The position numbers and the translations under genes are program-made. A stretch of DNA of 64,000 nucleotides from Isoetes taiwanensis (Eukaryota > Streptophyta > Lycopodiopsida > Isoetales > Isoetaceae). Each line of letters starts with the position of its first letter. The first letter of the stretch is position 1. The stretch covers positions 2,700,001-2,764,000 of the forward strand of contig JAJEKV010000073.1 of NCBI GenBank assembly GCA_021234155.1, in the 5' to 3' direction. A model generated the notes under the pieces. That model worked only from the letters and a program-made list of their open reading frames with translations, ran no database searches and was not told where the DNA came from. Positions 28,758 to 64,000 of this stretch are shown in pieces.

Positions 28758-29965
28758 GGTGTATCTAAAAGTCTGAAAGGGAGATTGCACTCAATAAGCA
28801 TCTTTCCAACCTTCAATTCTGCCTTCTCCATCCATCTTTTTTGCCAACCCGCTTGATTTTTAGTGAGGGTTGTTTGCCTCATGGTCATGTGCGTAGCGGT
28901 AGGAGATATTTCTTGTTCAATTTCTTGAATAAAAAGTGATGAAGTTCCAGTAGCATCGTCTGATCCCCTTTTTGAGGCAACCGACACTGAATGTGAGGCT
29001 GTTGCTGCTGTTGCTGCAGTTGTGGATGATTGTTGATTTTGCTCAGCCACTAAATGAGCCCATCCTTTCCTTAGTATAATCTCTTCCTTCATTTCAGGTG
29101 GACATGAAGGGCATTTCTTTATGCCTCTGCCACTAAGACCTACTAAATGTGCTTCCAATTTTCCAAGTACTCCTGTGGATGATAAGCTGCAGAATTTGCA
29201 AGTAAAGTGCTTGTTTCCACTTCCTTTACTTAACTCCAAAACTTTTTGGGCCTCAGAACATGCCTCCTCCCATAACTTGCTTGATTGCTTCATTTCCAGA
29301 CCTTCAATCAATCCTTGCTCACTGTGACTGTTCTAATCCCTCACCCTGTCACTGTTGACTGTTCTAAACTTCCAAACTCTGCCCTATAGTATTAGTGTTA
29401 ATGTTCACAGACAGATAACAGATTACAGAAAGGGCTCAAGCAGTTTGCTACATGATCAGATACAAGACATTACATTTCTTATATTCTAAAATTTCGTCCA
29501 CATCTACAAATGGATATAGGCAGAAAGGGATAGAGGCAGAATTGGTGGTAGGGAGATATTTTTTGATTGAATGGGGATATGCAAAAAGGCAAGGCTTTCC
29601 CCCCTTAAAATAGATACTATTCTACCTTGATAGAAAGATATAGAATGAAGTAAACGGTTTGGGGTGGGTTATTTCTCAAACCTCAGATGCTCTCTCAGCC
29701 GATTCCTACAGATCGACACCTTCCTGGACGATAGAATGACTCCAAGGCTGCCGAAACCCAGATTTATGCACTAAGACTTTATCTATACCAGTCCTAATTG
29801 CCGCTCTGATGCTTGCCAGACGAAATCGCATGCTGTTTCGATCTCCATCAATAGAAAACAGAGAGCTGGAGAACACAGAAGTCTGAATCGAGCAAACAGA
29901 GTGTCAACGACGCATGTGGACTATCCAAAACTATTCGAGACCTTAGGGCAAACATTTCTAGCAAT
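28758..29965 (-). pseudogene. Second, deleted copy of the hAT 5' region
   Basis: This repeats 25361-26618 almost base for base. It carries the transposase start (MKQSSKLWEEACSEAQKVLE at 29293), the BED finger and the first part of the coding region up to LPFRLLDTP, where it stops at the left junction (28758). About 55 bp coding for the proline-rich stretch before GSDDATGTSS are missing, and three extra Ala-type codons occur at the ATAATA run. Small clustered changes occur at 29320-29460. It has no DUF659 core, so it is a non-functional partial duplicate of the neighbouring element. Confidence 0.85.
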
Positions 29966-31560
29966 TTTTTAGCAGGGTTGCCTAACCCCCCCTGCACAAA
30001 AGGCTGCAATTCTAGCTATGCCACACGTCACCCAAAATCAATTTGGGCCGTCCGATTATGTAATTTCGGATCGTAGGGCCAGGGAAATTAGAAAACCCAA
30101 GAAATTCTCGCGGGAGTTTGCTTTCGATCTCGATCTTGGTGGCACTTTCGCCTTGGCTATGGCGGCCCGATCCCCGGCTGGCTATGGAGGCTTTTTTTTT
30201 TTTTTTTGGGCATACCGTTCTCCAGAGATCGAGGAACCCATGGTCAATTTTCGTCGGGGGCCTATCTTGGCAAATCTGAACTGTCGATAGCATTTTGGTG
30301 AGTTTGTATGCAAACCGGCAATACATGAGTAGAATGATGGCGGGGATCCTATCGCCATGAACTGTTGGTGTTGTTGGCCGTTGCGGCCGATTAGGGCATC
30401 GATCTTCGCTTCCGATATTCGAGAGCGAGATGGAGTTTTACATATGATATTCAATGGCTAGAGATGTTGCTCGGTGAAAGAGTGAGTATAGGTATCTGAG
30501 ATCACAACTAGAATTTTGTACTCTATCAAAGCATTCAATAGAACAACTAGATCACAACTAGAACACTTGGTGGGACGAACTTCTTACATGGAAATGAAAG
30601 GTCTTGTAAATGAATGATGATGCGGACTTCGTTTATGTTTCCATTGTTTTGTAGATGTATGCTTATGATTCTACAATATTCTTTTACAGTGCATATCCGC
30701 TAGGATTCTACATCTTGATGGAATAAATTCACATTTAATTACCTATGTGTGAATAATTGTGTACACATCTCTTTGGTTCCCATGTGAGCTTATTAAGGTG
30801 ATTTCGACGAGGCCAAGTCTACCAATCTGAAAGGTCATGTTGTACCGGTCGTGTAACAAGTTTAAGATCCCGATGATGGTTTTAAACCAACAACAGGCAA
30901 AGTTCAAGTATTAATGCTTTAGTTGTAAAAGATGCTTTTTTCGGATGATTAATTAATTAGGTTGGTTTGCGGTTTCTAGAAATCTTCAAATGACTTTAAC
31001 ATCTTAGCATCAAGTCTCACGGCTGACAAAGGTCTTAGACTACATTGGTTATCTTGAGAAGTGCCGATTCCACCAAAGGTGTGTTGCAATGTGATTAATT
31101 TATTTCAAATCATGCTACGTATAGATGCACACCTGCTGATTGTAGGGTTGGGATTTTGCAGAATCTTTCCCTTCGAGATGGGCATTTGTCCAATGGAGTT
31201 CTCGAGCCAAATCTGAGGCATCACGCATGAAATATTAGGTGATTCTTTAAGGTACATGCCATGCATTGCAGAAGTAGACTACATTTGAACAGATATTAAA
31301 AGCAAGGAATAGTAATGTGTACAAAAGAAGTTTTTTTTTTCTTCTTAAGTAGATGTATAATGACCCTTGTCTATCTTGAACTGATCTAAAATGCATCTTT
31401 GGTTAGATGGTACTATCGTGTGCATGCATGCATCTTTGTTCTATTACTGAAATGCTATGCATTTATGCTTTCATTAAATAAATCACGTTTTGTCTGTTTA
31501 AACATGAATATGATTTCGAACATGAACATGATTTCGTTAAGATATCCACAAATTCATAAC
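29966..31560. other. Stretch without recognised genes
   Basis: At 29970-29990 CAGGGTTGCCTAACC runs into CCCCCCTG, an inverted end reminiscent of hAT termini. ORFs near 30010-30450 occur on both strands with no family resemblance. The remainder is AT-rich and unremarkable. Confidence 0.4.
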
Positions 31561-37643: not shown

Positions 37644-40600
37644 TCACTGCGTGAAAGAACTTGAATCCGAACATATCGAATCTTCGGGGATGCTATAGCC
37701 AGATGCTCTTCTTTCCTCCTCACACATCAAGACCTGTTGAATGTAAGCAAAGGCACATTCCACAGATTCTTTATCGAGTCCGTTCACTGGTAAGGTGTAG
37801 AGCCTACGCCCATCAAGAAGTCTCTTAAATTTGTGCACTATGTAGATATATGCTTGCTGAATCTGATTCTCAATCAACTTCTCTGCCTGAACTGACTGCA
37901 CTCTTTGAGGATTATTTGCATGAGAGGATCCAACAGGACTGAAGTCAGAAAACCACTCGCACACAGTTATCGAGTTACCACTTGAAATCTTTTCTTTAAA
38001 TTCATCGAATTTATTAAAGAGGAGAACTAATGGAGTATGTGAGAAAGAGTGGCATGTAACAATGTTCCTGAAAAGCTCCTTGCTGTAAATCATCTTATTC
38101 TGAGGGACACCATTGCGATTTATACACATTTGGTCATAATCACTAATAGAAAGGCAATATACTAGAACCTCGATATCTCTGAACATATCCAACTTTCGGA
38201 ACTCGTTTAAACCAAGGCCACCAATGCTGATGAGATGATAGCTGCAATTAAAAGAAGATTATATTACTTGCATAAGAAGAAGGTAATAGAGCATAGCTAC
38301 AACCTAGCATATGTTGATTGAGAGGGTTCACTCTCTGCTATTGGCCCATCCTTATCTTCCAAGGAAAATACCTCCTCTGCAAGCCCTGAGCCTTCTGGAA
38401 GCCCTTCAGCACATAACACATCATGGTCTGAAGGGATGTACTCATCAGAGAAAAGCTCCGTTACCTGCATATTCTTTTGTCACTAGATTGTACACAACGG
38501 AGATAAATAGAGTATTTAAGATGCAAAAACTTATACAAGCCCTCCATAAGCAACACTAAGTTAGATTCCTCCCATACAGACAAGCCTATTGGTTCCTGCC
38601 ACGTTCACAGTCTCTTCCGTTCAGCACGGTTTGTGTATTGAGTATCTCAACTTGTTTTCTCAGAGGCCATAATACAGACTATCTTTCTCATGGTTAAACT
38701 GGACTCAAGAAAACATCCAACGGATGAACAGTTTCATATATGCCAAAGTTGGCTGCTTTTAGTGTAAAGCACAATAAAGGCTCCGATGCAATGAGATTGA
38801 GATAAACAATGCATATGAAAACTTACTCTAGAGAAATATTTCAGAGCATTGCCAGGCAACATATGCGGTGCTCGTTGGTAGGTAGCTTGAACAGCAGGAT
38901 CTTGCCACAGTTGTTCAACTATAAGTGGTCTGCCTAATTGTTCAAATGGTGTATTTGCTTTCTCCATAACAAGATTTGCTGCTTCCCTCAATGACTCACT
39001 TAATTTGTACCGATCCTTAGCTTCATCAATGGACCAAGAATTGCTAAATTCTGGAAACACATAAGAACAGTCTTGTAATTCAGAAGGCAAAAGTTCATGT
39101 CTAAAATAAATTGAAGCATAAAAAATCCTAGGAGTCTTATTCTTCATTTGAAAAGATTTCTTATGGAGCTCTCTGGCTCTTTCTTAGGTTTTTTGGGCTA
39201 ACCCTCAATCAATTTTGATTTTCTTTTCATCTTCCTATTCCTCCCCACATATGAGATGCCGAATCAGGTAGATAAAAGGAGGTCAACACTGTTGCTTGTT
39301 GAAATAACTGCACATTTGCTAATTCAATGTATGACCACCTGAATGAATGGTAATCCATAGCGATAAAAAATATATGGTTAAGTAAACAGGACACCTCATC
39401 ATTTTTGAACCCCCCACTACCAGTTAAAAACACAGTACGATAATACTGTACTACTGTAAATTTGCTTTCTCACTTGCTAGCTTCGCCTAGCGCTTTCACC
39501 TAGGAAGATGCTCCTAAAAAATAGTGAGCTGATGTATTTGTTGGTTTATACCACAAGGGTCTCTGAAGATGTTGATAAATTTCTTTCTTTCTCAAAATAA
39601 CCTATGAAAGATGACGCAGCACTACAACAGCAGCAGGTTTGTTTTCTTTTTGTTTGCAGTTCATTCGATAGACTTACCTTTCTTCAACCATCTCATGCAA
39701 TCATGATTAAATAAAGCATCACGTGTTGGAACTGCATTACTTAGACACCACTGTATATTAAGTTTCCAAAATGACATCTAGATTTACGAAGTTTAAAACA
39801 TAGCATAACAAGAAAAACCTTTTGATTCTTCTTCTTCTTCAAAGCATTCCCTTGCGTTTAACAAAATGCCCAGGTATTTGTAAATATTATTCCGTATCAT
39901 CTCTCTATATGTCAGCAATTCTTCCCTGGTGAACGTAAATTTCTCCTTGTATAAAATTTTGGCCTGCAAATGACCAGTCCATATTGATCAAGCAGAACAC
40001 AGGAGTAACAGCCATACCAGCAAGCAGTCACAACCACAGCCACAACAACAGATAGCTAGATGGGTATGCTCAAATGAATATGTCAAACAGGTAACTGCAA
40101 GCTTTAATCTGCTGCCACACTTCGTTTAACTACAGGAGCCCATACGTAACTCTTGTTGGGCCACTATTAGCATGCAAGAACAGACAGCCACATGGAGGAC
40201 GACGATGCATTAAAAGACCCGATAACTTTATGTACTGACTTTTATCTCCAAGTAACTGAGCACAAAATATAGACAATAATCCAGGGGAAGGACTCTATAC
40301 AAGCATTTACGTTAAGACCACCAAATATTGCAGCACATAAAGAATAAAAAATATCCAGCCAATGGGCATATGAACAACAAATAAGAAATCAATATCGAAT
40401 AAAATATCAATATCTTCTACCATGTTATCAGATACAAAGTCTGAGCCTTCATTCAATCCCCTTGAAGCTTTTTTTAGCGATGTGAGCTAGAGAATACCTA
40501 CCTAAGTTTTGTAATTATTTTATGTTTTATTAATCAATTCAGATTCATATATATAAAGAAAAAAAATCTATGTGTGTTTTAGGTCTTGACATCAATAAAA

Positions 40601-42587
40601 GTTCATACCTGTTTAAAAATAGTGCTCCTGCCAGAGCCCTCATTTCCAAGCAGAAGTATCTTGTGTGTGTTTCTCTGCTCAAAATATTCAGGCAACTTTG
40701 AAGCAGCATCCATGTCTGACTTAAAATGTCCATTGCTTCCACGAGGAACTGGAAGTGATAGTAATGTGGATAAAAATTTTACCGACGTCTGCATCAAAAT
40801 GTAACATAAGGGTGGGCCCATATAACATTCATAGACAGAATGCTCTTGCTTTAGATGTAACTTACCATTTTCCAAAGGTTCCCTTTCTTATTACTGTTAT
40901 CAAATCCTTCCTCTTCATATCGCCCGTCTGAATACAAAGTAAGGTATGTCTTTGGAGGGCATTGCACACCTGAATACTACATGGAACTTCCTGGTGTGAG
41001 ATAGCAAAGCCAAACATGGTCTACCTTTTTGGAACTACTTCAGCCTCCAAATGTTCTTATTAACACACATGTCAACACGCATTGCTTAAACGGTACTACA
41101 ACTTGGAAGTACTGGGAGAGTGCATGTTCAGGAGCAAGATTTATCTCTTCCTTGTCATGGCAATTAAGAGGATGACACTTAAGAGCCTAAGGGGAGGTAA
41201 TTGCTTGGCTACAACAGATATTCTAGGAAGACTATTTTAATCATATATCTAAATTTATCTAATCTATATTATGCACAAAAGGAAAATAATACATTTGGTG
41301 TCTTTGAGAGCAGTAATTTACGTTATCATAATTACTTGGATCGTGCATAGCAGCAGCAATTGACGGATATATTTATGCCAGACAACCTAGTAGAGACTTA
41401 TCTATGTCTGTCAAATAACTGCAAGCATAAGAAGAATATGATAACAATGAGCAAACAAAAAAACATTATCTTCCCTAGCTTTACATACATTCGGTTCTAC
41501 TTGGCTTTCTGAATGATATGTATGATAATTTGGTTCACACAAATAAAAGTATCATAAAATATTTGAATACCTTTAGCACATACAGTTCTGCCTTGCTGAT
41601 CTCACGATTATTAATGTAAACTTCAGTAGCACCTTTACTTGCATTTGACTTTAACTGTCCACCAACCCTTAAGCGGCAAGCAATAATTTCTGATGGCTTC
41701 TCCCCTTCCTAAATAAATGTACCCTTGGCATATTAGTTTCGAATTATGGTGGTCAATACTAAGATTTACACATCACTCACCTTACCCCAAAGCCCTGAAA
41801 CCTTGTCATACCAATACTTCCCAGGTTTCACTTTTCGAGGAGGATTGGGACATCCAAGTAGTTCAGCCAGCTCATGAGATGTAAGCTTTTCACCATTAAC
41901 ATAGATCTGCTCAGGGTGTAGTTGATTTGCTGGACATTCTTTCTCAGACTTCATAATTTGTTGAACCTCCAAAGGACTGAGAAGTCTCTTTAATAACCGA
42001 GAGGGCTTTCCCAAGCAAGTTCTTCGCGACTCATGTACTGGTTGTCCTATACAAGTCTCACACTTACGACCTTCTGGCATTGAACCCATAGCTTGCAGAA
42101 CACAATTGCTGCAGTATTTTGCATAACAAACCAAACAAGTCTCTTTCTCTTTCATCCGGATGCCTTTCAAGCATCTGCAGCACTTACCCTTTTCTCTTTG
42201 CTGCCCAGATACTGGACAATGTTCCCCAGATGTTGTTGGATATTCTGAAGATGTTGGCAAATTCCTAGAGTCACACTCTGGAGAGGAACAAGATGAATCA
42301 TGTTGTTGACCACTTGACTGCCCTAGATCCTCACTCACAAAAGGGGAAGAAGAAGAGGGAGGTCGACGGGGAAAATGAGGCACAAATTCTGCTACTGGCA
42401 ATGGGTGCTCTATTGGTGGTCCATCGTATTCAGGTGCAATTGAAAAGTCTAAATTTTCAGGCAATGGAACACCTGGAGGCAACATACGCCTTAGTTGTTC
42501 TATATAATCTTCCATGCCTGTATTGGACAAAGCATAAGCTTGTGGTTTTTTTCCTGAGTTCATCTCGTTGGGCATGAAATGGCACAT
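37644..42587 (-). CDS. XLG: Extra-large guanine nucleotide-binding protein (XLG), eight coding exons
   Basis: Minus-strand exons: 42587-41781, 41708-41571, 40976-40866, 40788-40609, 39963-39819, 39050-38827, 38464-38304, 38241-37644. Every join has GT-AG and keeps the frame, giving 787 codons; known XLGs are somewhat longer. The N-terminus has the family phrase PEYDGPPIEHPLPVAEFVP and a Cys-rich block (CCRCLKGIRMKEKETCLVCY, CSNCVLQAMGSMPEGRKCET). The second exon has ATEVYINNREISKAEL. The G-alpha-like half starts at exon 4: P-loop LLLGNEGSGRSTIFKQ, with Arg where G proteins have the invariant Lys. It ends with VLLFNKFDEFKEK (NKxD) and LPVNGLDKESV where TCAT would be, a known XLG divergence. 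XLGs act with G-beta-gamma at the plasma membrane and in the nucleus in immunity and growth signalling. The start ATG is the first in frame; a 5' UTR intron may end at TTGGTTGTAG (about 42597). Confidence 0.9.
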
Positions 42588-46839: not shown

Positions 46840-47420
46840 CTATCTTCTGTTAAGTTTTTGGTAAGTGTTCCATAATGTAGCACGGGCATTAGTTAGCCCA
46901 AAAGGCATAACGATAAACTCATAGTGCCCATAACGTGTCCGCAAGCCAGATTTATGGATGTCATCCTCTTTTATTCTTATCTGATGATAGCTTGAGCGAA
47001 GATCAATCTTTGTGAAGTACTTGGCCCCTTGCAATTGATCTATTAGATCATCGGCGCGCGACAGAGCATACCAATTCTTATTGTGTGCTTATTCGATTGC
47101 CTGTAATCAATGCACATACGCAAAGTACCATCTTTTTTCTTTATAAACAAAATAGGGGCACCAAAGTGTGATACACTTGGCCTAATGAATCCTAACTTAA
47201 GAAGCTCTTGCAGCTGCTTCTTAAGCTCTGCTAATTCGGGTGTGCTCATATGATACGGAGCCTTACTAGTAGGTTTAGTACCAGGTTCCAGTGTAATTTC
47301 ACATTCCCCGCCTCTGAAAGGTGGTAATTTTTGAATCTTATCTGGAAAGAGATCGTGAAACTCATGAAGTACTGCTTGTAGGATAATCAAAGATGTATTC
47401 GACTTGCACAATACATAACT
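46840..47420 (-). pseudogene. Ty3/gypsy reverse transcriptase fragment
   Basis: The minus strand gives [60 protein letters not shown], then after a short gap and shift [20 protein letters not shown] and [16 protein letters not shown]. It is the N-terminal half of RT and is closely similar to the element at 50219-61990 (56570-57060). It stops before the catalytic F/YxDD motif. The upstream end runs into a tandem repeat. No LTR was found nearby. Confidence 0.85.
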
Positions 47421-50213: not shown

Positions 50214-50218
50214 CCAAC
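50214..50218. repeat. Target-site duplication, left copy (CCAAC)
   Basis: CCAAC is found again at 61991-61995, directly after the 3' LTR. Confidence 0.9.
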
Positions 50219-51190
50219 TGTGACGTTCCAGCACAGTATACGGTCCCAGGACGTATACTGTACTGCCCCGTCACGCGTACACGCCACCCCGACTGACGTG
50301 TATGCCGACGTGTAGCCAGGCGGGTAGCCCCTAGGGGGCAACTTGCAAGGAGTGTGCATTTATTAATGTGCACATTTACCCATGTGCACATTTATCTAGG
50401 TGCACATTTTCCCCATGTGGACACTTTATGCCAAGTGGGCCATACCCAAGAGTGCAATTAATGTGCACATTTACCAATGTGCACATTTATTAAGGTGCAC
50501 ACCTTTCCATGTGGGCACATTTTGCCACCTAGCCATTAAAGGCAAGTGGGCCCATTCCCAATTATCCCACATGCCTAAAGGGGATAATTGGAAACCCTAG
50601 CCAACCTCCTTGTCTATTTAAGAGGGGAAACCCTAACTTGCCCATTTTTCGTTTCTAGGGTTTTAGAGCTCTGTTTTGACTGCCCCCGGGGTCAAAACCG
50701 CCTCCCAGACTCTGTCTGAGCGAATTGCCCCAGTAGTTTCCCTTGATTCGAGCAGTTTAGCAGGATGGTTGAGCTCAGGTCAGGAGGAGGAACTCAAGGA
50801 TCAGGTATTTCGTCAATTTAATAGCCTAAACCATCTTCTAGTCATTAAATCCGCAGGTTTAGCCTATTAAATTGCCCATAGCAGCCCTCTAGATCTCTAG
50901 ATACCAGACTCTAACTAAAGAACCTAACTCTATGATATAGATTAGATCTTGTTCTTTAGTTCTTCTGTGATGTATATGGATGATGTATCTCTATGAACTC
51001 CTTGTATTGGGAAGGGGAGTAGAGACCTAAAGCTTGGTAGTAGATGCTCCTAGATTAGCCTCTCTAGCACACTATAGATTCGGCCTGTGTACAAGAGCCA
51101 CACCTGGTTGTGGGTGAAGGGGCCAGACTGGCTTAGAAGGAGGTTCGTGTCCTGACCCTTGAATGATCCCTCTGGTGTGTAAGGCCTACG
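50219..51190 (+). repeat. Gypsy 5' LTR, truncated
   Basis: It aligns with 60324-61295. Identity ends at GGCCTAC (51184-51190): the 3' LTR goes on with CGGGGATCA, while here a coding sequence follows. A TATA-like CTATTTAAG lies near 50613. Confidence 0.9.
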
Positions 51191-52209
51191 AGGAGGAAAG
51201 GAGGAGCAAGGAGGAACAGGAGCAGAAGGGACAGCCAACCGTCGAGGAACAACTCGAAGCTTGGCCCCGTCTGCAGGAAGCTGAGGAGCGGGAGGAGCAG
51301 CGGCAGCCGAAACTTAGCCCCGCTGAAGAAGCAGACCTCGCGGCGTTCATCAGCAAGTATGAAGCCAAAGAGCGCCGCCGAGAGAGGAAGACCAAGAGAC
51401 GGGAGGACGAGCCAACCACAGCCGGCGAGCCGAAGATCAAGGCGGGCAAGAGAACAGTTGTGAAGGTTGGTAAGCGTGCGAAAGGTCCCGTCATCAATGA
51501 GCCATCAGGCGAGCAGACCCCGCCTTCTACTGACGACTTGGACGAAGATTACGTCCCCAACACTGAGGGGGCAAGCTCTTCAAAACCCCCGGTCATGGAG
51601 AAGGAAGTACCCGAGCAGGTGGCACCTGAGCAGGAGCAGCCCGGGCAGGCGCCGAAGCCCCCACCATTCCCGACGTGGGATAGGGTCAAAGCCCCACGGC
51701 CACAACGGGAGGCGTACGTGATAGACCCCGTCAAGGTCTATCAGAAGAAGATCAAGGAGCACAACGCTTACATGGCGAAGTGGGAGGCATACAACACTTA
51801 CTACCAGGAGCACAGGGTGAGAACAATTGAAGGCGGACGCCCGACAAAAAGTCAGACCCTGAAGCCGCCCCCACCGAAGCCCAAGCCTCCCAGAGCACCA
51901 GGAAAGAAGCGGACCAACAGCAAGCAGAAGGAGCAGAGAGCCCTCAAGGAAATCTGGCACTTCCAGCGAAGTTATGGACTCTTGATCCCCCGGGCACCGT
52001 TTCAACGCTTGGTCCGAGAGGTTATGCAAGAGTATAACACAGACATGCGGGTGACCGGCGAAATGTTGCTGTGCCTACAGGAGGCAGCAGAGCAAAAACT
52101 GGTGCAGCACTTTGAAGATTCGACGGCCTGCACAGTTCACGCGAAGAGGGTCACACTCATGAGATAGGATATGCATCTGGCTAGACACATCAAGGGAGAA
52201 CGCCCTTGA
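51163..52209 (+). pseudogene. Retrotransposon ORF1: histone H3-like protein with long N-terminal extension
   Basis: The ORF opens with an ATG inside the LTR remnant (51163) and reads 334 codons to TAG (52165). Residues 1-90 are highly charged (EEERRSKEEQ). Next are a basic stretch (KAGKRTVVKVGKRAKGP), an acidic and Ser/Pro part, and a proline-rich linker (KPPPPKPKPP). From about residue 259 it is a histone H3 fold: ALKEIWHFQRSYGLLIP (alpha N), FQRLVREVMQEYNTDMR (alpha 1), LQEAAEQKLVQHFED (alpha 2), HAKRVTLMR (into alpha 3). By eye roughly half of 74 positions equal canonical H3, without gaps. ALKEIxHFQ, LLIP and TLMR recall CENH3, but loop 1 has H3 length. The same frame continues after TAG with DMHLARHIKGERP to TGA (52207), matching the H3 C-terminus, so TAG replaces one codon. 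The true N-terminus may be lost in the LTR deletion. Confidence 0.88.
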
Positions 52210-52353
52210 ACTTTTGTAAATAATGAAAAATTTTTGTTAATATAAAGAATTTTTGTGTAAATAATGTGTCCAATCTTGCTTAACTAGGTTAAGATATTGA
52301 ATTCTAGCTTTTGTTTTGATCAAATTGGACTTTTTGAGCAAAATTGAGACGAT

Positions 52354-52420
52354 GTCTCACACGTCGCACCAGGACAGAAAATGAGAATCTCATTTTCGGG
52401 CTGGGCGCAACGTGTGAGAC
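52354..52420. repeat. Hairpin 1 upstream of ORF2
   Basis: A 67-bp imperfect inverted repeat: GTCTCACACGTCGCACC pairs with GGGCGCAACGTGTGAGAC, continuing through AGAAAATGAGA and TCTCATTTTC. Paired arms are about 32 bp with a handful of mismatches. Confidence 0.85.
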
Positions 52421-52553
52421 CATGCCCCAAAAATGCCCAAAACAGCTCCAAATCGACCAAATAAGGGGTCAATTATGCCTATCTCGACGAGTCCAGTAGA
52501 ATTACACCCTTAGATCACCCAAATTGATCAAGTTTAGCCCATTTAGAGCCCAT

Positions 52554-52620
52554 GTCTCACACGTCGCGCCAGGGCAGAAAATGAACTTTTCATTATCGGT
52601 CTGGGCGCAACGTGTGAGAC
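52554..52620. repeat. Hairpin 2 upstream of ORF2
   Basis: Same length and arms as hairpin 1, exactly 200 bp further on (GTCTCACACGTCGCGCC pairing with GGGCGCAACGTGTGAGAC). The inner part has diverged more. Confidence 0.85.
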
Positions 52621-52811
52621 CTCGCAGCATTTTCTTCACCATGCCATATCCAAATCATCTCCAGTTTCTTGCAATAGGTTCATTAGTCCATCTTAGCATG
52701 CTCAAACCCTAAAAGTAGTCTTCAAACTCTCAATTGCACCTCTTAATAGATCAGAATCGCCCAATCCCCGTAAATTCCAGGTCATCCAAAAATTAGGGTT
52801 TTTTCCTTTTC

Positions 52812-52819
52812 TATAAATA
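52812..52819 (+). promoter_or_regulatory. TATA box candidate before ORF2
   Basis: TATAAATA in the context TTTTCTATAAATAGG, 115 bp before the ORF2 start and after the hairpin pair. Its strength and spacing suit a plant RNA polymerase II promoter, which would make ORF2 a separate transcription unit. This is inferred from sequence only. Confidence 0.5.
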
Positions 52820-52933
52820 GGTCCCCCATTTCTCATTTAGCACCCTAGAAGTTTGCTCTCCACTGTTTAGGCGATCTTCCAGCTCCCTGAGGCGCTTCTG
52901 CATCCGTTTGATACTCTCTTCTTCGCTAGATAA

Positions 52934-54460
52934 ATGGCCACTGCTGACTTCAGGCGATGGTACAGCGCCAGTGCCCATGCTGCCGAGGCGGATGTCAATG
53001 ACATCTTCCGAGTCTTTGGGAAGGAAATAGATGTTCAAGCCACTCTGAATGCAACCCCAGCATACAGACAAGTTTTAGCAGAGTTCCAAGCTAGGGTAGG
53101 ACCCTCCCTCGTCCAGCTCCCCCCTTGCATAGGCTATTTTGTTCCCCGCCCATCCCTTCAAACAGCCTTGGGTGATGTCCCGAACATCGCCAAGTACTTA
53201 ACCAACAAGGCGCAGAGGCTGCCAGACTACATAGTCCTGACAGTTAACAGGACCAAGTATTTCTCTTACACCGCCGCCCTAGCTATTTTCCTATCCCACC
53301 GTGCCGAAAACCCAATGGGGGCAACCTCTATCCCTCCGATGGAGGTGGACCCCATAGCAGCCCAAGCAACAGAGCAGATGCTCTTGCAGTACCAGCAGGA
53401 GCAAGAAGGAAGAGAAGAAGAAGAGGAGTCGGGCGACAAAGAGTACACGGAGCTCGACTCAGACGAAGAATGGCGCCAAGCAGAGGAGGAGCTGGCCAAC
53501 ATCGAGCGGAGCCGGCAGACCCTCAGAATTGCTCCCCCACTTGGGCTAGGCATCACAAGCCTAGCCCCCATCATCATCAACGGAGAGGAGTATTTACTCC
53601 TCAGTGACATCCAGAACCTTCCTGAATGCAGGGAGAGGGAGCTCAGACTTGATGAGTTGCTGCACCAGCTACGGCAGCAACCAGAAATGGACGACTTCAT
53701 CATCCGAGGAGCCTCAGACTTCCCGTTTCAAGTGCGAGAAGCCGACACCTACACAGGGGAGTCGACTTCTGATATCCAGGCCTACAGCAGCATAAGACAG
53801 GTTATGGAGGCCGGAGACCTGCCATCGGAAGAAGAGTTCCTCGCCATCCAGGAACGGATGGGGATCAGAGGCAAGACCACCAGCATCTTGATGCCGAGCC
53901 CCTCGACACCACCTCCAGCAAGAGGAGCAGGAATCGACATCAGGCGAGTCGACTCTACAATTGCAGACTACCGAGAGCTGACTGAGATAGAGGTCGACGA
54001 CTACGCTGGACGGCATAGAGCGGGAGGCCAAACAAGTGGAGAATCATCTGCGACACACAACGACAGGTCGCTGAGGTACTACCTGCCCCTGCTGCTGGAT
54101 GGGAGAATAGCGGTGATACACCGCAAATTCAGCCCACGAGGTGAAGAAGGAGTGTTCATGCTTATTGCACTCTCAGACTTCGGCAGGCATGCTCGAATAG
54201 CGGCAAATGTCGACTATGCTGTCCTAGTGAAGAGAGCAATGGCACTTGACCTCTTTGACTTCGCCGTGCCCTACCGACGGCAGGGAAGATTGGCAATAAC
54301 CGCGGCCTACACCTCCGACCGCAGGGTGGAAGAGTTGGTGGCGGCCTTGCAGGGCGGGACGTCGACCAATGTCCTTAGGAACTTGGGAGGCTCGATAGGA
54401 ACGGCCCAAGTTAAGAAGTTCCTAGAGGACAACCCATCTTACCGGCGATTTCAAGATTAA
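52934..54460 (+). CDS. Retrotransposon ORF2: 508-aa protein of unknown function
   Basis: The ORF is intact, 508 codons, starting MATADFRRWYSASAHAAEAD. It has no stop or frameshift, although pol nearby has both. Visible parts: an ordered-looking N-terminal domain (residues about 20-130, with VNDIFRVFGKEIDV and PDYIVLTVNRTKYF), a strongly acidic glutamate-rich segment (about 157-191, GREEEEESGDKEYTEL), a middle part with a REREL helix, a Ser/Pro linker, and a C-terminal domain (about 385-508, with SLRYYLPLLLDGRIAVIHRK and VFMLIALSDFGRHARIAANV). I do not recognise any domain: no zinc knuckle, protease or polymerase motif, signal peptide or membrane span. The acidic segment recalls histone-binding proteins, and its neighbour is a histone-like ORF; a chaperone role is speculation. 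It could instead be a second structural or envelope-unrelated accessory protein. Confidence 0.75.
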   Translation: MATADFRRWYSASAHAAEADVNDIFRVFGKEIDVQATLNATPAYRQVLAEFQARVGPSLVQLPPCIGYFVPRPSLQTALGDVPNIAKYLTNKAQRLPDYIVLTVNRTKYFSYTAALAIFLSHRAENPMGATSIPPMEVDPIAAQATEQMLLQYQQEQEGREEEEESGDKEYTELDSDEEWRQAEEELANIERSRQTLRIAPPLGLGITSLAPIIINGEEYLLLSDIQNLPECRERELRLDELLHQLRQQPEMDDFIIRGASDFPFQVREADTYTGESTSDIQAYSSIRQVMEAGDLPSEEEFLAIQERMGIRGKTTSILMPSPSTPPPARGAGIDIRRVDSTIADYRELTEIEVDDYAGRHRAGGQTSGESSATHNDRSLRYYLPLLLDGRIAVIHRKFSPRGEEGVFMLIALSDFGRHARIAANVDYAVLVKRAMALDLFDFAVPYRRQGRLAITAAYTSDRRVEELVAALQGGTSTNVLRNLGGSIGTAQVKKFLEDNPSYRRFQD

Positions 54461-54678
54461 TAGACTCTTGATCCCGAAGATTTTGTACTAAAATATTATA
54501 TAATATAAATATAATTTCCCTTGCACTTTAAATGTTTTGTTGATGTATTTTGTTCCACAACTATGCCAACAAACCACATATAATGCAAGAGAACGAGTAA
54601 AACTAACCATATAGCCATGATTTACTTGTGTATGCAGCTAGAGGCCTAGGCTCAGGAGAACGACAACGCCGAGACAAC

Positions 54679-57489
54679 ATGGAAGAACAGAGTCCGCCCA
54701 GGCCACCCCCGGCAAGGAACCTGTTTGAGGAATTTGGACCCATGACCCCAGAAGAGGAAATATCACAGATGAGAACAGACCTTGAGCAGATAAAGGCTTT
54801 GCTGGCCGCACAAGCAGGAGTGGGTTCGGTGGGCAATGCTCAGTTGCCTCAAGCATCAGCTCGGAAAACAGGAAGGGACAAGAAGAGGAGCAAGAGAAGG
54901 AGGTCCTCCAGCTCGGAATCCTCTGACTCAAGCTCCGATTCGGACTCTGACTCCGAGGAAGAGGAAGAGCAGGCCCAGGACCGAACAAATGGAAGGCTGA
55001 GGAACACTGCAGATGGAAGGCAGAGGGATACCACAGATGGACGACAAAGGGACACAAGAACCTCTGATTACCAGAAGAAGGTAGACTCGGCATTGGAAAA
55101 TGTTTGGAAGGCCAGGAAGCTCGAGCAATTCTCAGGCGAGAACAGGTCAGGCATGGAGGCAGAGGCTTGGCTCGATGAGATGAGTGAATATGGCAACGCT
55201 TATGGTATGAAGGACAAGGATAAAGGCAGGGTGGCAACAGCCAACCTGAAAGGAGCAACACGTATTTGGTGGAAGGGGTATGCAAAGGCCCATGGCTTGA
55301 GCAGGGATGCTTGCAGGTTCAGGAAGTTTGCTAAAGCCTTCAAGCGCCATTACGTCCCAAGAGAGCACAAGTCCAGCATGATGCAGCAGTTCTATAGGCT
55401 GCAACAGGGAAACAAATCAGTCCAGAAATATACAAGGGAATTCATGAGGCTAAGGCTTTATGTGCCAAAGTTGGGCGAAAAGCATGCAGTGGAAAGCTAT
55501 ATTGAGGGGCTGAATGATGAGATCCGCAAGCTTGTAAGGGCAATAAACCCTAAGACAGTATCAGAAGCAGAGTCCAAGGCAATAAGTTTGCAAGGAACAG
55601 GACCTCAGAATAGCGGGCAGAGGCAGCAGTATTATCAGGACAAAGGCAAGGCAACAGGGAGTTATAGCCCTAGGGCAGCTAGCCCAGGCCCAGCTAGAGC
55701 CCCGTATGGTGGCAACCAGGGGAAGCAACAGGAAAAGAAGCAGGTGTCCTTCAAGGACAAGCAGGAGGGGTCAAACTACTCCAAAGCAGTGCGATCCTTT
55801 TTGCAGGCTATGCCCAAGGAAAAGAGACAGGAGTGCATAGAAAAGCAGCTTTGCTTCAGGTGCTTCCAGCCAGGCCATAGGACAGCGAACTGCCCCTACG
55901 TCATGAGTGCAGCGCTAGCGGAGTTGGGAGATTGGGACACTCCGTCTGACGACGACGGCGAAGCATCCCGCGACTACATTCAGGGTGAGTGTCATATCTT
56001 TGCCGCAATAGATACAGAGCAAGCAGAGAGCCAGTATAAAGTAATTTCTACACTAGGGAAGGCCAAGGCCAAGTCTTTCATAGTCCTGATAGACTCGGGA
56101 AGTAGCCATAACTTTGCATCCCCCAGAATGGTTGAAATGTTGAAGTTGAAACCACTAAAGTCGAAGCCAAGGCCCGTCGTCTTAGCAAGTGGAGCAGTAA
56201 GGCAGACGGCAGGTAAGAGAATTAACTTCGACATCGACTTGCCAGGGATTAATATCCAGATGGGGGCAGAGGTAATGGGCATTGGCAAGTATGACCTGAT
56301 CATAGGAATGGAGTATCTTGGACCAGCAGGGGCCATCATCGATTGTGGGAAGCGGAAGGTGACCTTCCCAACCCCCGACGGCAAGATCATTGAGATCACA
56401 GGTAAAGAAGTTGTTCCCATCATGCAGTGTATGTCTTCTAAGCGGCTGTTCAAGTGCATCAAGAGCGAGCAGGTAGCTTACATCTTCAAGCTTGAGATTG
56501 AAGAGCCGGAGTTGGAGGAAAGCAAAGAAGACAAGGGACTCAGCAAGTTGCCGAAGCAAATAGCTAAGTTGATCACGGAATTCCACGATCTCTTTCCAGA
56601 CGAGATCGAGCACCTCCCTCCTTACAGGGGAGTCGAGTGTGAGATAGCACTCGAACCAGGGACCAAGCCGACAAGTAAGGCCCCATACAGAATGACGACG
56701 CAAGAGTTGACGGAGCTAAAGAAGCAATTGCAGGAGTTGCTCGACCTAGGTTTCATTAGACCTAGCGTCTCGCCGTTTGGAGCACCCATTCTTTTTGTAA
56801 AGAAGAAGGATGGTAGCTTGAGGATGTGCATAGACTATAGGCAGTTGAACAAGCACACCATCAAGAACAAGTATGCGCTCCCCAGATCAGATGACTTGAT
56901 GGATCAGCTCCAAGGTGCAAAGGTCTTCTCCAAAATAGACTTAAGGTCAGGATATCATCAGATCCGGATAAAGGAAGAAGATATCCATAAAACTGCCTTC
57001 AGAACGTGGTATGGGCACTTTGAGTTTACGGTAATGCCTTTCGACTTATCGAATGCCCCCGCGACATTCATGAGGCTCATGAACGACATCTTCAGGGAGT
57101 TCTTAGACACCTTTGTGATTGTATTCTTTGACGACATTTTGGTGTATAGCAGATCCCTTGAAGAACACGTACAACACTTGAGGAGAGTGCTGGAGAAGTT
57201 GAAGAGGCACCAGTTGTGCGCCAAGTTGTCGAAGTGTCACTTCGCAACGGAGAAGGTGGAATACCTGGGTCATGTGATCTCAGCAGAAGGAATTTCGACA
57301 GATCCTGCCAAGATTGAAGCTGTCATTCAGTGGCCGGCACCGAAGAATGTGCATGAGGTCAGAAGTTTTCTCGGCCTAGCAGGGTACTACAAGAAGTTCG
57401 TGAAGAACTTTGCTAAGATAGCGGCCCCGCTAACAGACTTGACAAGGGCGGAGAAGGTGAAAGATTGGGCAGAGCAGGATAAGCCCTAG
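54679..57489 (+). CDS. Gypsy gag-protease-RT (frame ends at a shift)
   Basis: The first ATG is 54679 ([20 protein letters not shown]); the frame is open earlier and a possible splice acceptor (GTATGCAG, 54636) precedes it. Gag: a Ser/Asp/Glu tract (54905-54975), then [20 protein letters not shown] and [10 protein letters not shown] (55100-55600). Zinc knuckle [15 protein letters not shown] (about 55853-55897). Protease [16 protein letters not shown] (about 56080-56125). RT from 56580: [49 protein letters not shown] (about 57118-57160), and [20 protein letters not shown]. All catalytic aspartates are there. The frame stops at TAG (57487) one base out of register with the RNase H that follows, so Gag-Pol is interrupted. 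Confidence 0.9.
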
Positions 57490-59486
57490 CAGGATTTGAA
57501 TTGCTGAAGGAAGCGTTAACAACCGCCCCAGTCTTAACTCTGCCGGACCCAGAGAAGGATAAGCTTGTAGCCACAGATGCGAGTAAGATAGCTACAGGTG
57601 CAGTGCTCATGCAAGAGGAGCGTGTGGTAGCGTATGATTCCAGGAAGATGAACGACGCCGAAACGCGCTACCCCATGCACGATCAGGAATTGCTTGCGGT
57701 TGTCAGGGCATTAAGAATTTGGAGGCATTACCTTTTGGGAAGGAAGTTCCAATTGGACACAGATCATCAGAGCCTCCAGTATGTATTCACACAACCACAC
57801 CTCAACCTGAGGCAGAGAAGGTGGATGGAGTTCCTTGAAGAATATGACTTTGATATAGTCTACAAGCCAGGGAAGCTCAATGTGGTAGCGGATGCGCTTT
57901 CAAGGCATCCCCTGACAACTAGAGTGCATTGCAATGCAATTTCGACGCTCTCCAGCGACTTTGGTAAGAAGATTGAAGTGTCCTTGCCAACGGATGTGGA
58001 TTTCAAGGAAGTATGGGCAAGCCTCTCTAGGGAGGCTAGAACAGATAAGGAACGGGAAGCCTTCAAACATTATAAGAAGGAAGGCAACCTGTTATACCAT
58101 AAGAACAAGTTGTGCGTGCCCGAATCATCAGGTGTAAGGAAATTGATCCTCCATGACACGCACAACAGCCCAATAGCTGGCCATGCGGGATTCATGAAAA
58201 CATATTTCAAAGTGCGCAGCAGCTATCATTGGCCAGGAATGAAGAAGCAGGTAGCTCGCTACATCAAGGAATGTCAGCTATGCCAGCAGACGAAGGCAGA
58301 GCAGCTTCGAATTCCAGGGGCATTGGAGCCATTAGCGGTGCCAAACGCTAAGTGGGAAGTGATCAGCATGGATTTTATAACAGGGCTTCCAAGGACAGTA
58401 AAGGGGAAGGATGCCTTGATGGTAGTGGTCGACAAGTTGTCAAAGATGGCACATTTTGTGCCTTGCAGGACCACAGACACGGCTATGGATACAGCAAAGC
58501 TCTTCACCAAAGAGATCTTCAGGCTTCATGGCATGCCAAGGGAGATTATCTCCGACAGGGATCCGAAGTTTATGAGTGCCTTTTGGCAAGACCTCTTTGC
58601 GACCATTCAGACGAAGCTATCCATGAGCACGGCGTATCATCCTCAGACGGATGGCCAAACGGAGCGGACCAACAGGATTTTGGAGGACATGCTACGAAAC
58701 TATGTCTGGAATAAGCAAGGTATGTGGGAAGAATTTATTCACTTGGTGGAGTTTGCATACAATAGCACCAAGCAGGAATCATCCTAAATGTCGCCGTTTA
58801 TGATCAATTACGGCTATCAATGCCTAACTCCAGACACCTGGCACAATCCCGTGTCAAAAGTAGAAGTTTCGCAGCAGATGTTGGCCGATATGCAGCAGCT
58901 GGTGGAAGAAGTTCGAGGATATCTTCTAGCAGCAAGGAGCCGACAGAAGAGCATCGCCGATAAGCATCGAACAGTCAGGGAGTTCGAAGTTGGCGACAAT
59001 GTGTGGCTCAAGATCAAAGTGAAGCAGGCGAAGCTCCGTATCGGAAATTGTAAGAAGCTTGCTTCAAGGTGGGCTGGACCTTTTAGAATAGTCAAAAGAG
59101 TAGGTAATCAATCCTACAGATTGGACTTACCAGCACACCTAAAGATTCATAAGGTCTTCCACGTGAGTTTGTTGAAGAAGCACACTCCAAATCCAGACGA
59201 AGTCTTGGACACTCCAACGTTGTTGGAAATGACAGAGGAGCAGCTGGAAATAGTTCCAGAATTGATTCTTGATAAAGCTTTCAAGAAAACAAGGAGGTCG
59301 GAGTTCCTCCAATACTTGGTCAAGTGGAAACACTTGCCAGTGGAAGACGCGACATGGGTACTCAAGAAGGCTCTATTAAAGCAGTACCCACAGTTCATGG
59401 AGCAATGGGACGGCAAGGTCATCTCCGAGGAAATCGGCTCAGGCATATGTGTAGTAAGATTAATCTACGCATGCAACCTATGCTAG
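57480..59486 (+). pseudogene. Gypsy RNase H, integrase and chromodomain
   Basis: RNase H: FELLKEALTTAPVLTLPD, VATDASKIATGAVL, DQELLAVVRALRIWRHYL, QLDTDHQSLQ. Integrase: zinc region with HDTHNSPIAGHAGF and CQLCQQTK (58152-58295), DDE core MDFITGLPR (D, 58370), ISDRDPKFMS (D, 58548), DGQTERTNRI (E, about 58660). An in-frame TAA (58785) separates YNSTKQESS from MSPFMINYG; the reading frame is unchanged across it. C-terminus: KVFHVSLLKKH, then a chromodomain SEFLQYLVKWKHLPVEDATW (59303-59362), ending at 59486. In chromoviruses this domain guides integration to modified histone tails. A front frameshift and one stop disable this copy. Confidence 0.9.
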
Positions 59487-60323
59487 GTATGGGTTGCATG
59501 CGTTGTTACCGATGATGGGACCACTACGGTGATCTCTAGGGCGTGGTGTAATATCGATGTAGGCATGACCGCATTTCCGCTTGGAAGAGTGGAAGGTAGA
59601 TTAGAAAGTCTACTTCTGTCCCATGGAAGTAGACGACCTCGAGAGAAAGGAGGTCATTGAGGAATGCATTGATAGGAAAAGCACCTCTAGCCCCATATAT
59701 GTTTTGATAGGAGGAATCTGCACGCCCCATATACGGGAAGGACCTATCCTCCACGATGGGCAACTAAAGGTGTAGGCATGAGCGGCATATAGGCATATAG
59801 GCGCTGTCTCCGCGGCCACGATGGAAGAATCATCCTCTTCCTACGCCGGGAGATTAGCCATGCATTCATGTAGATAGGTGGGGTGGTCACCATATAACCA
59901 AAATTTTATTAATAATTATTAAAATGGTACTAACGTAGTGTCGACCTGCAGGCCAATAGAGCGCTCCGGAGGGCAAGGAGGTCGAGCTACGAAGACTTGC
60001 AACACAAAATTTTGTTGGAATGTGTTGCAAGGAATGAAGAGTACCTCGAACAATAATTATGAAATGTTAAAATTTTGATAAACTAAAATTGTTGTGATAA
60101 GTGAATTGTTGAGTAACTTGTTTGACGATGTTATGGATTGATAAGTTATTTTATAAGTTAAGGGCGTAATAATGTTTTAAAAATATTACCTTAAGGTAAT
60201 CTTAGTAAATGTGTAAGTATTATAGTAGTATATTGTATGTATCAGGTTGATTGCAGGTTAGGAAGATCCCAAGGTGGGGAGACCCACGATGCTGCGGACA
60301 GCATCATTTCAAGGTGGGGAGAA
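59487..60323 (+). other. Gypsy 3' untranslated region with two polypurine tracts
   Basis: No ORF of note. AAGGTGGGGAGAA directly precedes the 3' LTR (60311-60323) and is the plus-strand priming polypurine tract. A near-copy, AAGGTGGGGAGA, lies 40 bp upstream (60271-60282). Confidence 0.8.
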
Positions 60324-61990
60324 TGTGACGTTCCAGCACAGTATACGGTCCCAGGACGTATACTGTACTGCCCCGTCACGCGTACACGCCACCCCGACTG
60401 ACGTGTACGCCGACGTGTAGCCAGGCGGGTAGCCTCTAGGGGGCAACTTGCAAGGAGTGTGCATTTATTAATGTGCACATTTACCCATGTGCACATTTAT
60501 CTAGGTGCACATTTTCCCCATGTGGACACTTTATGCCAAGTGGGCCATACCCAAGAGTGCAATTAATGTGCACATTTACCAATGTGCACATTTATTAAGG
60601 TGCACACCTTTCCATGTGGGCACATTTTGCCACCTAGCCATTAAAGGCAAGTGGGCCCATTCCCAATTATCCCACATGCCTAAAGGGGATAATTGGAAAC
60701 CCTAGCCAACCCCCTTGTCTATTTAAGAGGGGAAACCCTAACTTGCCCATTTTTCGTTTCTAGGGTTTTAGAGCTCTGTTTTGACTGCCCCCGGGGTCAA
60801 AACCGCCTCCCAGACTCTGTCTGAGCGAATTGCCCCAGTAGTTTCCCTTGATTCGAGCAGTTTAGTAGGATGGTTGAGCTCAGGTCAGGAGGAGGAACTC
60901 AAGGATAAGGTATTTCGTCAATTTAATAGCCTAAACCATCTTCTACTCATTAAATCAGCAGGTTTAGCCTATTAAATTGCCCATAGCAGCCCTCTAGATC
61001 TCTAGATACCAGACTCTAACTAAAGAACCTAACTCTATGATATAGATTAGATCTTGTTCTTTAGTTCTTCTGTGATGTATATGGATGATGTATCTCTATG
61101 AACTCCTTGTATTGGGAAAGGGGGTAGAGACCTAAAGCTTGGTAGTAGATGCTCCTAGATTAGCCTCTCTAGCACACTATAGATTCGGCCTGTGTACAAG
61201 AGCCACACCTGGTTGTGGGTGAAGGGGCCAGACTGACTTAGAAGAAGGTTCGTGTCCTGACCCTTGAACGATCCCTCTGGTGTGTAAGGCCTACCGGGGA
61301 TCATTGTGACTAGGTCTAATGGCTTACCACTGAGTGTGGGTAAGGCATGGGCTCGACACCCGTGAAGTGGTGTACACTTTCCAGTGGGTTCAGTCGAATA
61401 AGGGCAGTGGCCCTCTAGTCACCTTGGGTCAGCATGTAGACCTCTGGAGGGAGTGATCCCTACCTGCCCCATCAGAACTGGGGAGATGCAACCCAGGAAT
61501 AGCCCCTTTAGCTATGCCTCCGGCGGGCTACAGTCAGGTCCCAACACTTTTCAGCCTACTCTGCAAAGTGTGCACAGGAGGGGCGGATGGAGTGGACAAC
61601 CCTAAGCCATGTTCTTATGCCAGCCAAATCCATTGTCATGAATTCTGTCTGCAATGAACTCTGGAGACCCAAGCCGTCAGTCATCCCCTCGAGTCTGAGC
61701 CTTGGGTAGGACCCCTATGTATGATGCTGATCATTGTCTATGCAGATGTTGGTGCACCACCCTTCGAGGTGGATATGTGATTATGTTGTATACTGACGTG
61801 TATGTTTACGCTTCCGCAGCTAGGTAGGCCCTGAGGGAGACGGGGTAAAATGACCCCTTCACCCTTCCCACTGGGACTCGTTACGGGTGCAGTGATTGTG
61901 GAGGGCCCTGTATCAGTATGGAGCTGGTATGGGGGATGAACTCCTGTTTGTATACGGTGAGTGCACCGTATACGAGTAGGGGACGTCACA
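60324..61990 (+). repeat. Gypsy 3' LTR (complete, 1667 bp)
   Basis: It starts TGTGACGTTCC after the polypurine tract and ends GACGTCACA before CCAAC. A TATA-like CTATTTAAG is near 60718. The last 700 bp have no partner at the 5' end of the element. Confidence 0.9.
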
Positions 61991-64000
61991 CCAACAATGA
62001 AAGATCTGCAATACAATACCCTTTTATAACCATTATAGTTTAGGCTATGCAATAAATAAAAATGTTGCCATCTCACCGTAACACTTCATTGCACGCGAAT
62101 GGATGCTCCACTTCAATGCCAGCTCATAACTTTCATAAATGAGCTCAACTTCATAGCAACATTTGTGGTTGTGATCCATCCATATAAACGACAGTCAATG
62201 ACATTGAGCTTCACACCTGCACAAACAGAATATGTCTCGGTAGAGGCTTATCTGTAAACTCTCAATTCAAGTTGAGAAAATAGAGAAACCGGATAACATT
62301 CCAGCGAAATCCAATCTGTATTTTTGACACACCTCTGTATTTTGGCTGACAGTGTGAAAACTCTTGGAAGGTCAGTCTGGAAACATCAACATCAGAAGCC
62401 AAGGCTATCCAGTTAAGAAAATTCAGGATTGCGAACTAGCTACAACTTGATTTCGATTGTCCCATCCACTCAAATAAGTCAAAACTCTCCAATCCAGTCA
62501 AAAATAAACCAACAGCACTGCACCCTTACCTCTAAAAGGCCTTCCTGAATTGCCACGACTGCCACACAAACGGGTCAAATGCATGCATCAAAGTGAGGCT
62601 GGTTGATCAGAATGAACCTCGTGCCAATTTTTTTTTTTTTCTGCATCTATAGGAGGGAAACACTGTCTATTGCAATATAATCTAGCCTATTGTTTCTAAA
62701 TATACATCGGAAATGGATCCATGGCAAAGAGCAGTGATGTCGTACAATTCAGAATTCTGGATCCGCGGCAAAATTCAGGATTCTGGAAGGGTCGTTGCCT
62801 GCAACCACCAAAACGTTCCCAGAATAAAAGAACCCTTAAAAAGAAGAATGGACCGCCCTTTGTTTGTTAAGAGGCATCAGGCTCTTTGTGGTCTTCTCGT
62901 GCTTTTTGCCGACGAAATTGAAGGCCCAGCCAGAACTCCTCCTACTTTTTTTTGCCTTTTTATGCCTCTCTAAGTTTCAACAAAGAAGCTCCACCTCCGG
63001 ATTACGCTATTCTAAAATTGGCAACTAGATTATAAATGCCTCTGCCCCATAAATCCAACCTAGACGGAAATGTGACCCTGCTTCGAACTTACACGCCTGA
63101 GACTGCGGTTTGATCTCAGCAGCTAGCATTTGCTCTTTATATACCTGGCCGAAGAATACGCTGGAAACTTCGAGAAGGTGAACGGAGCTTTTCGAACAAC
63201 CTTCTAGAATATACTATAGCAGAGGAAAGTTCTAGAAAGAGCTACCTCCTTCCAAATTTTTTATGTGTTGACACGTGTTCAATTAAGATCATAATTTTCT
63301 ATAAAAAATACATACACCTAAGCTGCCCCCTTACCTTCCACATTAGAATTATATATCAGAGAGATATTGATGGATTATTATAATCACTTGTGAAACCATC
63401 ATTGTTATGGTGTTCTTTTATATTACGGTCGTCGTAGAAACCATTATTCGAGATACATTGGAAATCAATAATAGGCTCAAATCCACGATTACATGAGCTA
63501 AGAGAAATGCTTGCGAAGAGAAATGTTCGCGGCAGCCTTGGCCGTCGCGATAAATTTCTTGTGTAATAATAAAGTTTTATGGTTTGTATTCCTTTTCATG
63601 CATATCCCTAATATATAATTGTATTACGGACGTCAAGAGGGTAGCTTAGTTAAAGATTGTGTAACCTTTAGTAATGTACACGTGTAAGTGCCAAAAACTC
63701 TATGAACAATAGAGGTGTTTCTAGAAACCGCTTTCTCATGTCTCGATGCCTCTCGAGAGCTTCGGATCATTGCCGAAACTTTTGGATTGATCATTTTATT
63801 GATATAAAAGGGGAGGACTAGGAGTATATCGGCCCAAAGTCTGGAGAGGAGGCTAGAGTAGATATCTGAGGGCAAGGCAGCGGCCAATTCCAGAAATGGT
63901 CAAACAGGTTGTCCTAGGGTTTTTCCGAAGTTGATGCTTCCAGAGTCGATGTCTGCAATGAAGGATTCGGCCCGATGGGGTATTTTGAATTGGATTGTGA
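61991..64000. other. Right flank, no recognised gene
   Basis: The minus-strand piece next to the element (61991-62030) ends in TTGTATTGCAG on its upstream side and, joined with 50160-50218, gives an exon-like stretch. At 63190-63235 TTCGAACAACCTTCTAGAA and GTTCTAGAAAG resemble heat-shock elements. ORFs at 62713-62973 and 63633-63887 show no family pattern. Confidence 0.35.

Follow-up and report, generated by a model that had tools for sequence, protein, structure and literature searches.

A histone H3 fold in an open reading frame between the 5′ long terminal repeat and gag of a degenerate Ty3/gypsy chromovirus of Isoetes taiwanensis

Introduction

Can a plant long terminal repeat (LTR) retrotransposon carry a histone of its own? 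The question is raised by a locus of Isoetes taiwanensis on contig JAJEKV010000073.1 (assembly GCA_021234155.1). There, a stretch of 64,000 nucleotides (positions 2,700,001 to 2,764,000 of the forward strand, hereafter the window, from whose first letter all coordinates are counted) contains a gypsy element with a chromodomain, and the first open reading frame (ORF1) of this element ends in a histone H3 fold. An initial annotation had offered three explanations: the element makes its own nucleosome mark, it uses the histone for centromere or chromatin targeting, or it carries a captured host gene as a passenger. Our analysis supports the view that a chromodomain LTR element took up an H3-type gene of its host. 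With a probability of about 0.6, we propose that a chromodomain Ty3/gypsy lineage captured a canonical-type host H3 and retained it, between the 5′ LTR and gag, as an accessory gene beside a second open reading frame (ORF2).

Results

ORF1 ends in an H3 fold of canonical type

ORF1 (51163..52167, forward strand) encodes 334 residues. As the initial annotation had described, about 258 charged and proline-rich residues, which include a predicted long helix, are followed by an H3 fold, here up to H3 residue 121. The Pfam histone profile PF00125 recognized ORF1 with an E-value of 4.1e-22, and an H3 fragment of 88 residues, in which X replaces the stop, with 5e-24. Among sequence matches in the PDB, all of the best 60 of 183 were named H3 (top E 3.2e-21). 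The fold region (51940..52209) aligns to H3 without a gap and covers positions 47–135 in H3 numbering, followed by TAA. The reading frame had been drawn to 52209, and in-frame H3 sequence does extend that far, but the ORF itself ends at 52167. A TAG codon at 52165-52167 stands in the place of H3 K122, and beyond it the frame reads DMHLARHIKGERP to the TAA ending at 52209.

Comparison with canonical H3 (H3.1/H3.3) over positions 47–135 gave 48 of 89 identical residues. The window protein shares the fold, the length of loop 1 and, among other residues, R69, R72, R83, C110, H113, K115, R116 and T118. It differs from canonical H3 in R49K, R52W and R63P, in the stop at K122 and in the absence of the tail from the window copy. 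From the plant H3 P0003 the core differs at 40 of 89 places (the stop counted), with no insertion or deletion (indel). The H3 N-terminal tail ARTKQTARKS was not found in the present ORF1, whose 5′ end has seemingly been lost, and an intact copy could differ in this respect. A chance ORF is ruled out by the histone score (E 4e-22). In addition, a 325-codon open frame has a chance probability of about 1e-5 at the local base composition, and the guanine-cytosine (GC) content by codon position is 0.63/0.43/0.68, with coding-like third positions. Judged from its sequence, the H3 of ORF1 is of canonical type and strongly diverged.

AlphaFold2 was run on residues 161–334 of ORF1 together with 23 further sequences. 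The model has helices where alpha-N, helix 1, helix 2 and the cut helix 3 belong, and a 34-residue helix ahead of the fold with a predicted local distance difference test (pLDDT) value of 94–95 in its middle. The 13 best Foldseek matches of the model are all nucleosome or histone-octamer entries. A histone lacking its partner may fold poorly alone, and we give the model little weight.

The H3 fold lies inside a chromovirus bounded by target-site duplications

The element is 11.8 kb long, and CCAAC target-site duplications (TSDs) stand outside both ends, at 50214..50218 and 61991..61995; the placement of the H3 ORF within TSD-bounded ends was thus confirmed. The LTR has the ends TGTGACG...CGTCACA. 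Its 3′ copy (60324..61990, forward strand), defined by LTR comparison and by the TSD, is complete with 1667 bp. A first measurement had placed the LTR end at 51189/61294, which we rejected since the TSD is absent from that place; the 3′ LTR in fact ends at 61990. The 5′ LTR (50219..51189, forward strand) consists of the first 971 of the 1667 bp only, and 959 of these 971 are identical to 60324-61294 in a gapless alignment. Nine of the 12 mismatches are transitions. This divergence presumably corresponds to roughly 0.5 to 3 million years, given the substitution rates that we assume.

The shortened 5′ LTR runs directly into ORF1 at the junction 51189/51190. Therefore ORF1 adjoins the LTR, as had been noted, but the LTR is truncated, and the ATG at 51163 together with the first 27 nt of ORF1 is LTR sequence, in which the 3′ LTR has ACG at the place of the ATG. 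We infer that the window copy has lost the remainder of its 5′ LTR together with the primer site, the leader and the original start of ORF1. The initiator-Met primer site TGGTATCAGAGC, the sole pattern tried, has four matches in the window with at most two mismatches and none in the element, where its place appears to be deleted. A polypurine tract with one T (aaggtggggagaa, 60311..60323, forward strand, read directly from the sequence) adjoins the 3′ LTR.

Pfam searches of the ORFs gave the domain order of a Ty3/gypsy chromovirus on a single strand, the forward one. Gag (Retrotrans_gag), aspartic protease and reverse transcriptase occupy 54638..57489; the gag CCHC finger scores only below the Pfam cut-off. 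RNase H and integrase follow at 57501..58787, out of frame with the preceding ORF and ending in a stop. The integrase C-terminal SH3 domain (PF24626, E 8.5e-22) and the chromodomain (PF00385, E 9.8e-10) lie at 58788..59486, so that the chromodomain reported initially is indeed part of the same element. Like plant chromoviruses, the element combines gag, protease, reverse transcriptase, RNase H, integrase, chromodomain and polypurine tract with LTRs that have TG...CA ends, here with the 5′ one shortened, and a short TSD of 5 bp. Unlike them, it has two additional ORFs before gag, one of which contains the H3 fold. Between these two ORFs are two 76-bp direct repeats that are 87% alike (52346-52421 and 52546-52621). 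With its 5′ deletion, the stop in H3 and a pol interrupted by one frame break and one stop, the window element is a single dead chromovirus copy.

A piece of a second gypsy pol is located at 46873-47372 on the minus strand, and its protein is 74–81% alike to that of the chromodomain element.

ORF2 and a possible gag intron

ORF2 (52934..54460, forward strand, 508 residues) follows the H3 ORF and precedes gag. It matched no Pfam family. In a collection of 5.8 billion proteins, from which the search scored only the 7996 candidates with most words in common, ORF2 had one match, P0235, with 47% identity over 99% of the length and a MAT start in both proteins. Because of this relative ORF2 is not a chance frame, and we take it to be a real, conserved protein. 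Its structure prediction was useless (mean pLDDT 34.1). A TATA-like ctataaatag at 52811-52820, about 115 bp upstream of ORF2, could be a promoter of its own.

A possible leader exon, MVELRSGGGTQGS, is found in the LTR at 50765..50804 on the forward strand. It reads ATG GTT GAG CTC AGG TCA ... GGATCAG, the final CAG being followed by GTATTT. An acceptor-like TGTGTATGCAG ends at 54637, immediately before gag, and the leader would join it in frame with gag; the joined frame is free of stops. The 3′ LTR version of the leader frame contains a stop. In the window copy, ORF1 and ORF2 would perhaps be contained in an intron of gag spanning about 3.8 kb.

Changes in the H3 core are more conservative than neutral ones

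We compared the changes in the H3 core with a neutral simulation of 2000 runs per starting sequence, each halted at the same count of changed residues and run without indels. From a canonical start, the mean BLOSUM62 score of the changes was 0.05 as against -0.54 under neutrality (P 0.017), and from the consensus of an unnamed H3 family described below it was 0.24 as against -0.57 (P 0.0005). The core changes are therefore more conservative than neutral ones, which likely reflects constraint over the history of the sequence. The stop and the 5′ deletion are probably recent.

An unnamed family of long H3 proteins

In a protein search with ORF1, none of the best 120 of 1449 matches covers more than 51% of the query. 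The best core match is P0096, an unnamed ‘ena’ protein, with 54 of 88 residues identical; ordinary H3s within the 40 best have 47–52. A search with nine such family members (A1) returned 117 unnamed ‘ena’ long H3s among the best 120 rows, which were the ones examined, with clusters of up to 42 members; the figure for the whole search, at least 7953/7963, also includes fused ordinary H3s. Since many close variants without names occur, the protein sequences suggest a multi-copy, perhaps mobile, gene. Three rows were excluded as head-to-tail fusions of ordinary histones: the Nymphaea row P0001, at the top of both searches, and the insect rows P0121 and P0122 beside it in the A1 search.

The family was defined by a linker motif. 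Its sets of 97, 104 and 101 rows were drawn with slightly different patterns between counts, and 16 unnamed A1 rows without the motif were omitted. The 104 rows are 193–418 residues long (median 386). Seventy-two of them begin like H3, mainly with MARTKQTARK[N/D]TGGKP, which precedes a linker, at most about 280 residues long, and then a nearly canonical H3 fold. These 72 tails were chosen by a pattern requiring MA, R/C, T/M and K4-Q5-T6-A7, so that nothing follows from their conservation there, and it excluded at least one family row, P0182, which has S7. K9 and position 10 lay outside the pattern: residue 9 is K in 71 of the 72 rows, and residue 10 is N in 53, D in 17, H in one, G in one and S in none. 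Mean column entropy over 97 rows is lowest in the tail (0.20 bits) and the fold (0.32), reaching 0.33–0.57 in four parts of the linker and 0.92 in its low-complexity stretch; as the rows were collected by H3 similarity, conservation of the fold is partly built in. At several conserved arginines a minority of rows have C, H, Q or W; R52, for example, is R in 84, H in 8, C in 5 and W in 1 of 100. Such replacements resemble the decay of methylated CpG and would fit a silenced repeat.

Our literature searches, which were not aimed at the long-H3 family, yielded nothing on it. Another odd group of H3s, P0086 (184 residues) and P0109 (193 residues), comes from the source jgi and is named just ‘histone H3’; these proteins have serine-rich tails with the TARK motif twice.

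Kinship of the window H3 with the unnamed family

The window H3 and the ‘ena’ family have K49, H53, F54, L90 and C91 in common as against the chosen canonical H3. From the family core pattern D50, H53, A59, L90 and C91 the window departs in having E at 50 and G at 59. C91 is present in 99 of 100 family cores and in the window, and in no ordinary H3 of the alignment. It is the strongest mark of kinship, since L90 is also present in the ordinary plant H3 P0003 and Arabidopsis CENH3 likewise has K49, H53 and F54. By hhalign, the window and family folds align over 76 columns (58%).

For the tree we used 17 selected unnamed rows (16 with the motif, plus P0114) and 16 other sequences. Unconstrained and without CENH3, it left the window on a long branch of its own, apart from the family, and a tree constraining the window with the 17 family rows was 2.65 log units better than the result of the free search. 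A shared origin of the window H3 and the ‘ena’ family is allowed by these data and slightly favoured.

Other features of the window

Two direct copies of 1.27 kb (25360-26622 and 28758-29970) are 91% alike, and an ORF in the first scores just under the Pfam cut-off for DUF659 and is probably what remains of a transposase. An element of copia type, broken and recognized by eye through its ORFs, lies at 18310-21422 on the minus strand. The region 37644-42587, also on the minus strand, contains a G-alpha domain (E 2e-27) that is closest, in the PDB, to a G-alpha subunit presumably from a plant; an ORF near 42 kb on the same strand, without a Pfam match, is presumably typical of plant extra-large G proteins. 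The window also encodes a pentatricopeptide repeat (PPR) protein, which, like the G-alpha piece, indicates a land plant as host, and degenerate internal repeats, about 64–74% alike, are found at 1310-2722.

Discussion

In the TSD-bounded element described here, an H3 fold and a second ORF stand between the 5′ LTR and gag. Functional retention of the H3 is favoured by the conservative nature of its changes and by the family that looks related to it. Several observations weigh against this interpretation. The evidence comes from one element copy, which lacks the start of ORF1 and in which the stop removes half of helix 3. This helix is required for pairing with a second H3, and its residues D123 and L126, which take part in the H3-H3 pairing, are encoded only behind the TAG. 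The number of stops fits neutrality, with one seen and about two expected (P 0.35 and 0.43 for the two starts). The structure model is weak (mean pLDDT 65.6), and the best Foldseek match reached E 2.3e-3, with TM-scores of 0.20–0.33. As to the family, hhalign gave no similarity between its members and the N-terminal part of the window protein (probability 1.5%), the family linker SPxHVTTT...RGWSTDQM and IHEARMQGRLVKPHRYRAGT was not found in the window by the same comparison, and the approximately unbiased (AU) test showed no significant preference for either tree (p-AU 0.615). That the ‘ena’ family itself is located in transposons may be so, as a conjecture from the protein rows.

The broken state of the copy, with its stop in the fold, its lost start and its interrupted pol, is what one would see if a host H3 had been caught once and had since been carried unused and decaying, and the stop count agrees with this as well. 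Such a passenger should, however, hardly keep 89 core codons free of indels while 40 residues change, nor change them conservatively, and the coding-like third positions of ORF1 also speak against it. Moreover, the defects can postdate insertion, the LTRs differing at only 12 of 971 sites. We regard a passenger as unlikely, though worth keeping in mind. A different question, compatible with capture and retention, is whether the window H3 and the ‘ena’ family go back to one event. Nothing is alike outside the fold, the AU test is indifferent, and K49, H53, F54 and L90 are met in Arabidopsis CENH3 or in plant H3, all of which would suit independent captures in which the five shared residues converged. 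Against this stand C91, absent from the aligned ordinary H3s, and the better likelihood of the constrained tree. Independent captures remain a serious contender, somewhat short of even odds.

Centromere targeting, as proposed at first, would be expected if the protein derived from CENH3. The motifs LLIP, LKEI, HFQ and TLMR resemble plant CENH3, chromoviruses would be a suitable background, and one tree, which included CENH3, joined it with the window. The program flagged that join as doubtful, however, the two being long branches that meet. Loop 1 is of canonical length and gapless against H3, in contrast to the longer loop 1 of CENH3, and the residues behind the stop end like canonical H3 and unlike CENH3. 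On these two grounds we rejected a CENH3 origin, which we hold to be very improbable. Lower still we place the proposal that a host H3 gene or pseudogene landed beside an LTR, or that the assembly joined the two. The sharp junction at 51189/51190, the absence of the remaining LTR and the primer site not found in the element could be explained in this way. The chimeric join that the initial annotation had considered thus has a junction to point to, but it lies at the 5′ end of ORF1, outside the H3 part. The TSDs at both ends, the polypurine tract, the 3′ LTR and the order of ORF1, ORF2, gag and pol on one strand argue against this proposal, as does ORF2, which is no chance frame given P0235.

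Mobile-element-borne histones have seldom been reported. In Pyrenophora tritici-repentis, a hAT DNA transposon carries an H3-like gene, H3L, and a second ORF of unknown function (PMC3538342). According to that report, H3L has insertions in its tail, matches neither H3 nor CenH3 in full and is present in 26 copies in the reference genome. The window element resembles this hAT in that both are mobile and combine an H3-like gene with another ORF; the fungal element differs in being a DNA transposon with terminal inverted repeats, whose H3L copies are nearly identical. For H3L the authors suggested drift, which would favour a passenger here too (PMC3538342). A screen of 121 angiosperm genomes found 15 extra domains, and its available text names no histone (PMC9289625). 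Among its examples, Gypsy elements of the orchid Phalaenopsis with ALKBH are like the window element in that a captured host domain has been fixed in an extra ORF of a plant Ty3/gypsy element, although that domain is an RNA demethylase and not an H3.

Among the papers listed by our searches, which were judged by title and the start of the abstract, we found none on a retrotransposon-encoded histone. The initial statement that no plant LTR element with a histone had been described therefore agrees with these listings and with the text of the angiosperm screen, although an H3-like gene in a fungal DNA transposon was already known in 2013. Scans of IMG/VR with P0118 from the ‘ena’ family, ORF1, the queries A4 and A5, ORF2 and gag-protease gave L001 as the sole match, over 25 residues at 56%, which we take as chance, and a search of genome contigs with A4 gave nothing useful.

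How might an element use such a protein? Under capture and retention, the host H3 would have acquired a long new N-terminal part. Splicing would probably remove ORF1 and ORF2 to yield the gag message, whereas unspliced or alternatively spliced RNA would give rise to the H3-like protein. The protein could then pair with host H4 and enter nucleosomes, with the element's own DNA or targets chosen by the chromodomain as the likeliest places. The resulting chromatin might be less well silenced by the host, or be recognized by the element's own chromodomain; a self-made nucleosome mark, as initially suggested, is possible in this sense. A bolder proposal is that a large undescribed class of plant LTR retrotransposons encodes its own H3, in which a long linker joins the H3 tail to the fold, and assembles nucleosomes specific to the element. 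The ‘ena’ family may, as a conjecture within this proposal, be plant-derived and borne by such elements. As the family tail has K9 but not S10, phosphorylation of S10 would not dislodge readers of methylated K9, the chromodomain integrase included, and the element would write a mark that is read by its own integrase and retained through mitosis. We consider this wider proposal improbable at present.

The finding points to a family of long, nameless H3 proteins in unannotated assemblies. If true, a retrotransposon H3 would mean that an element supplies the very chromatin part that hosts use for silencing, and it would offer a way into the question of how such chromodomain elements select and retain their sites.
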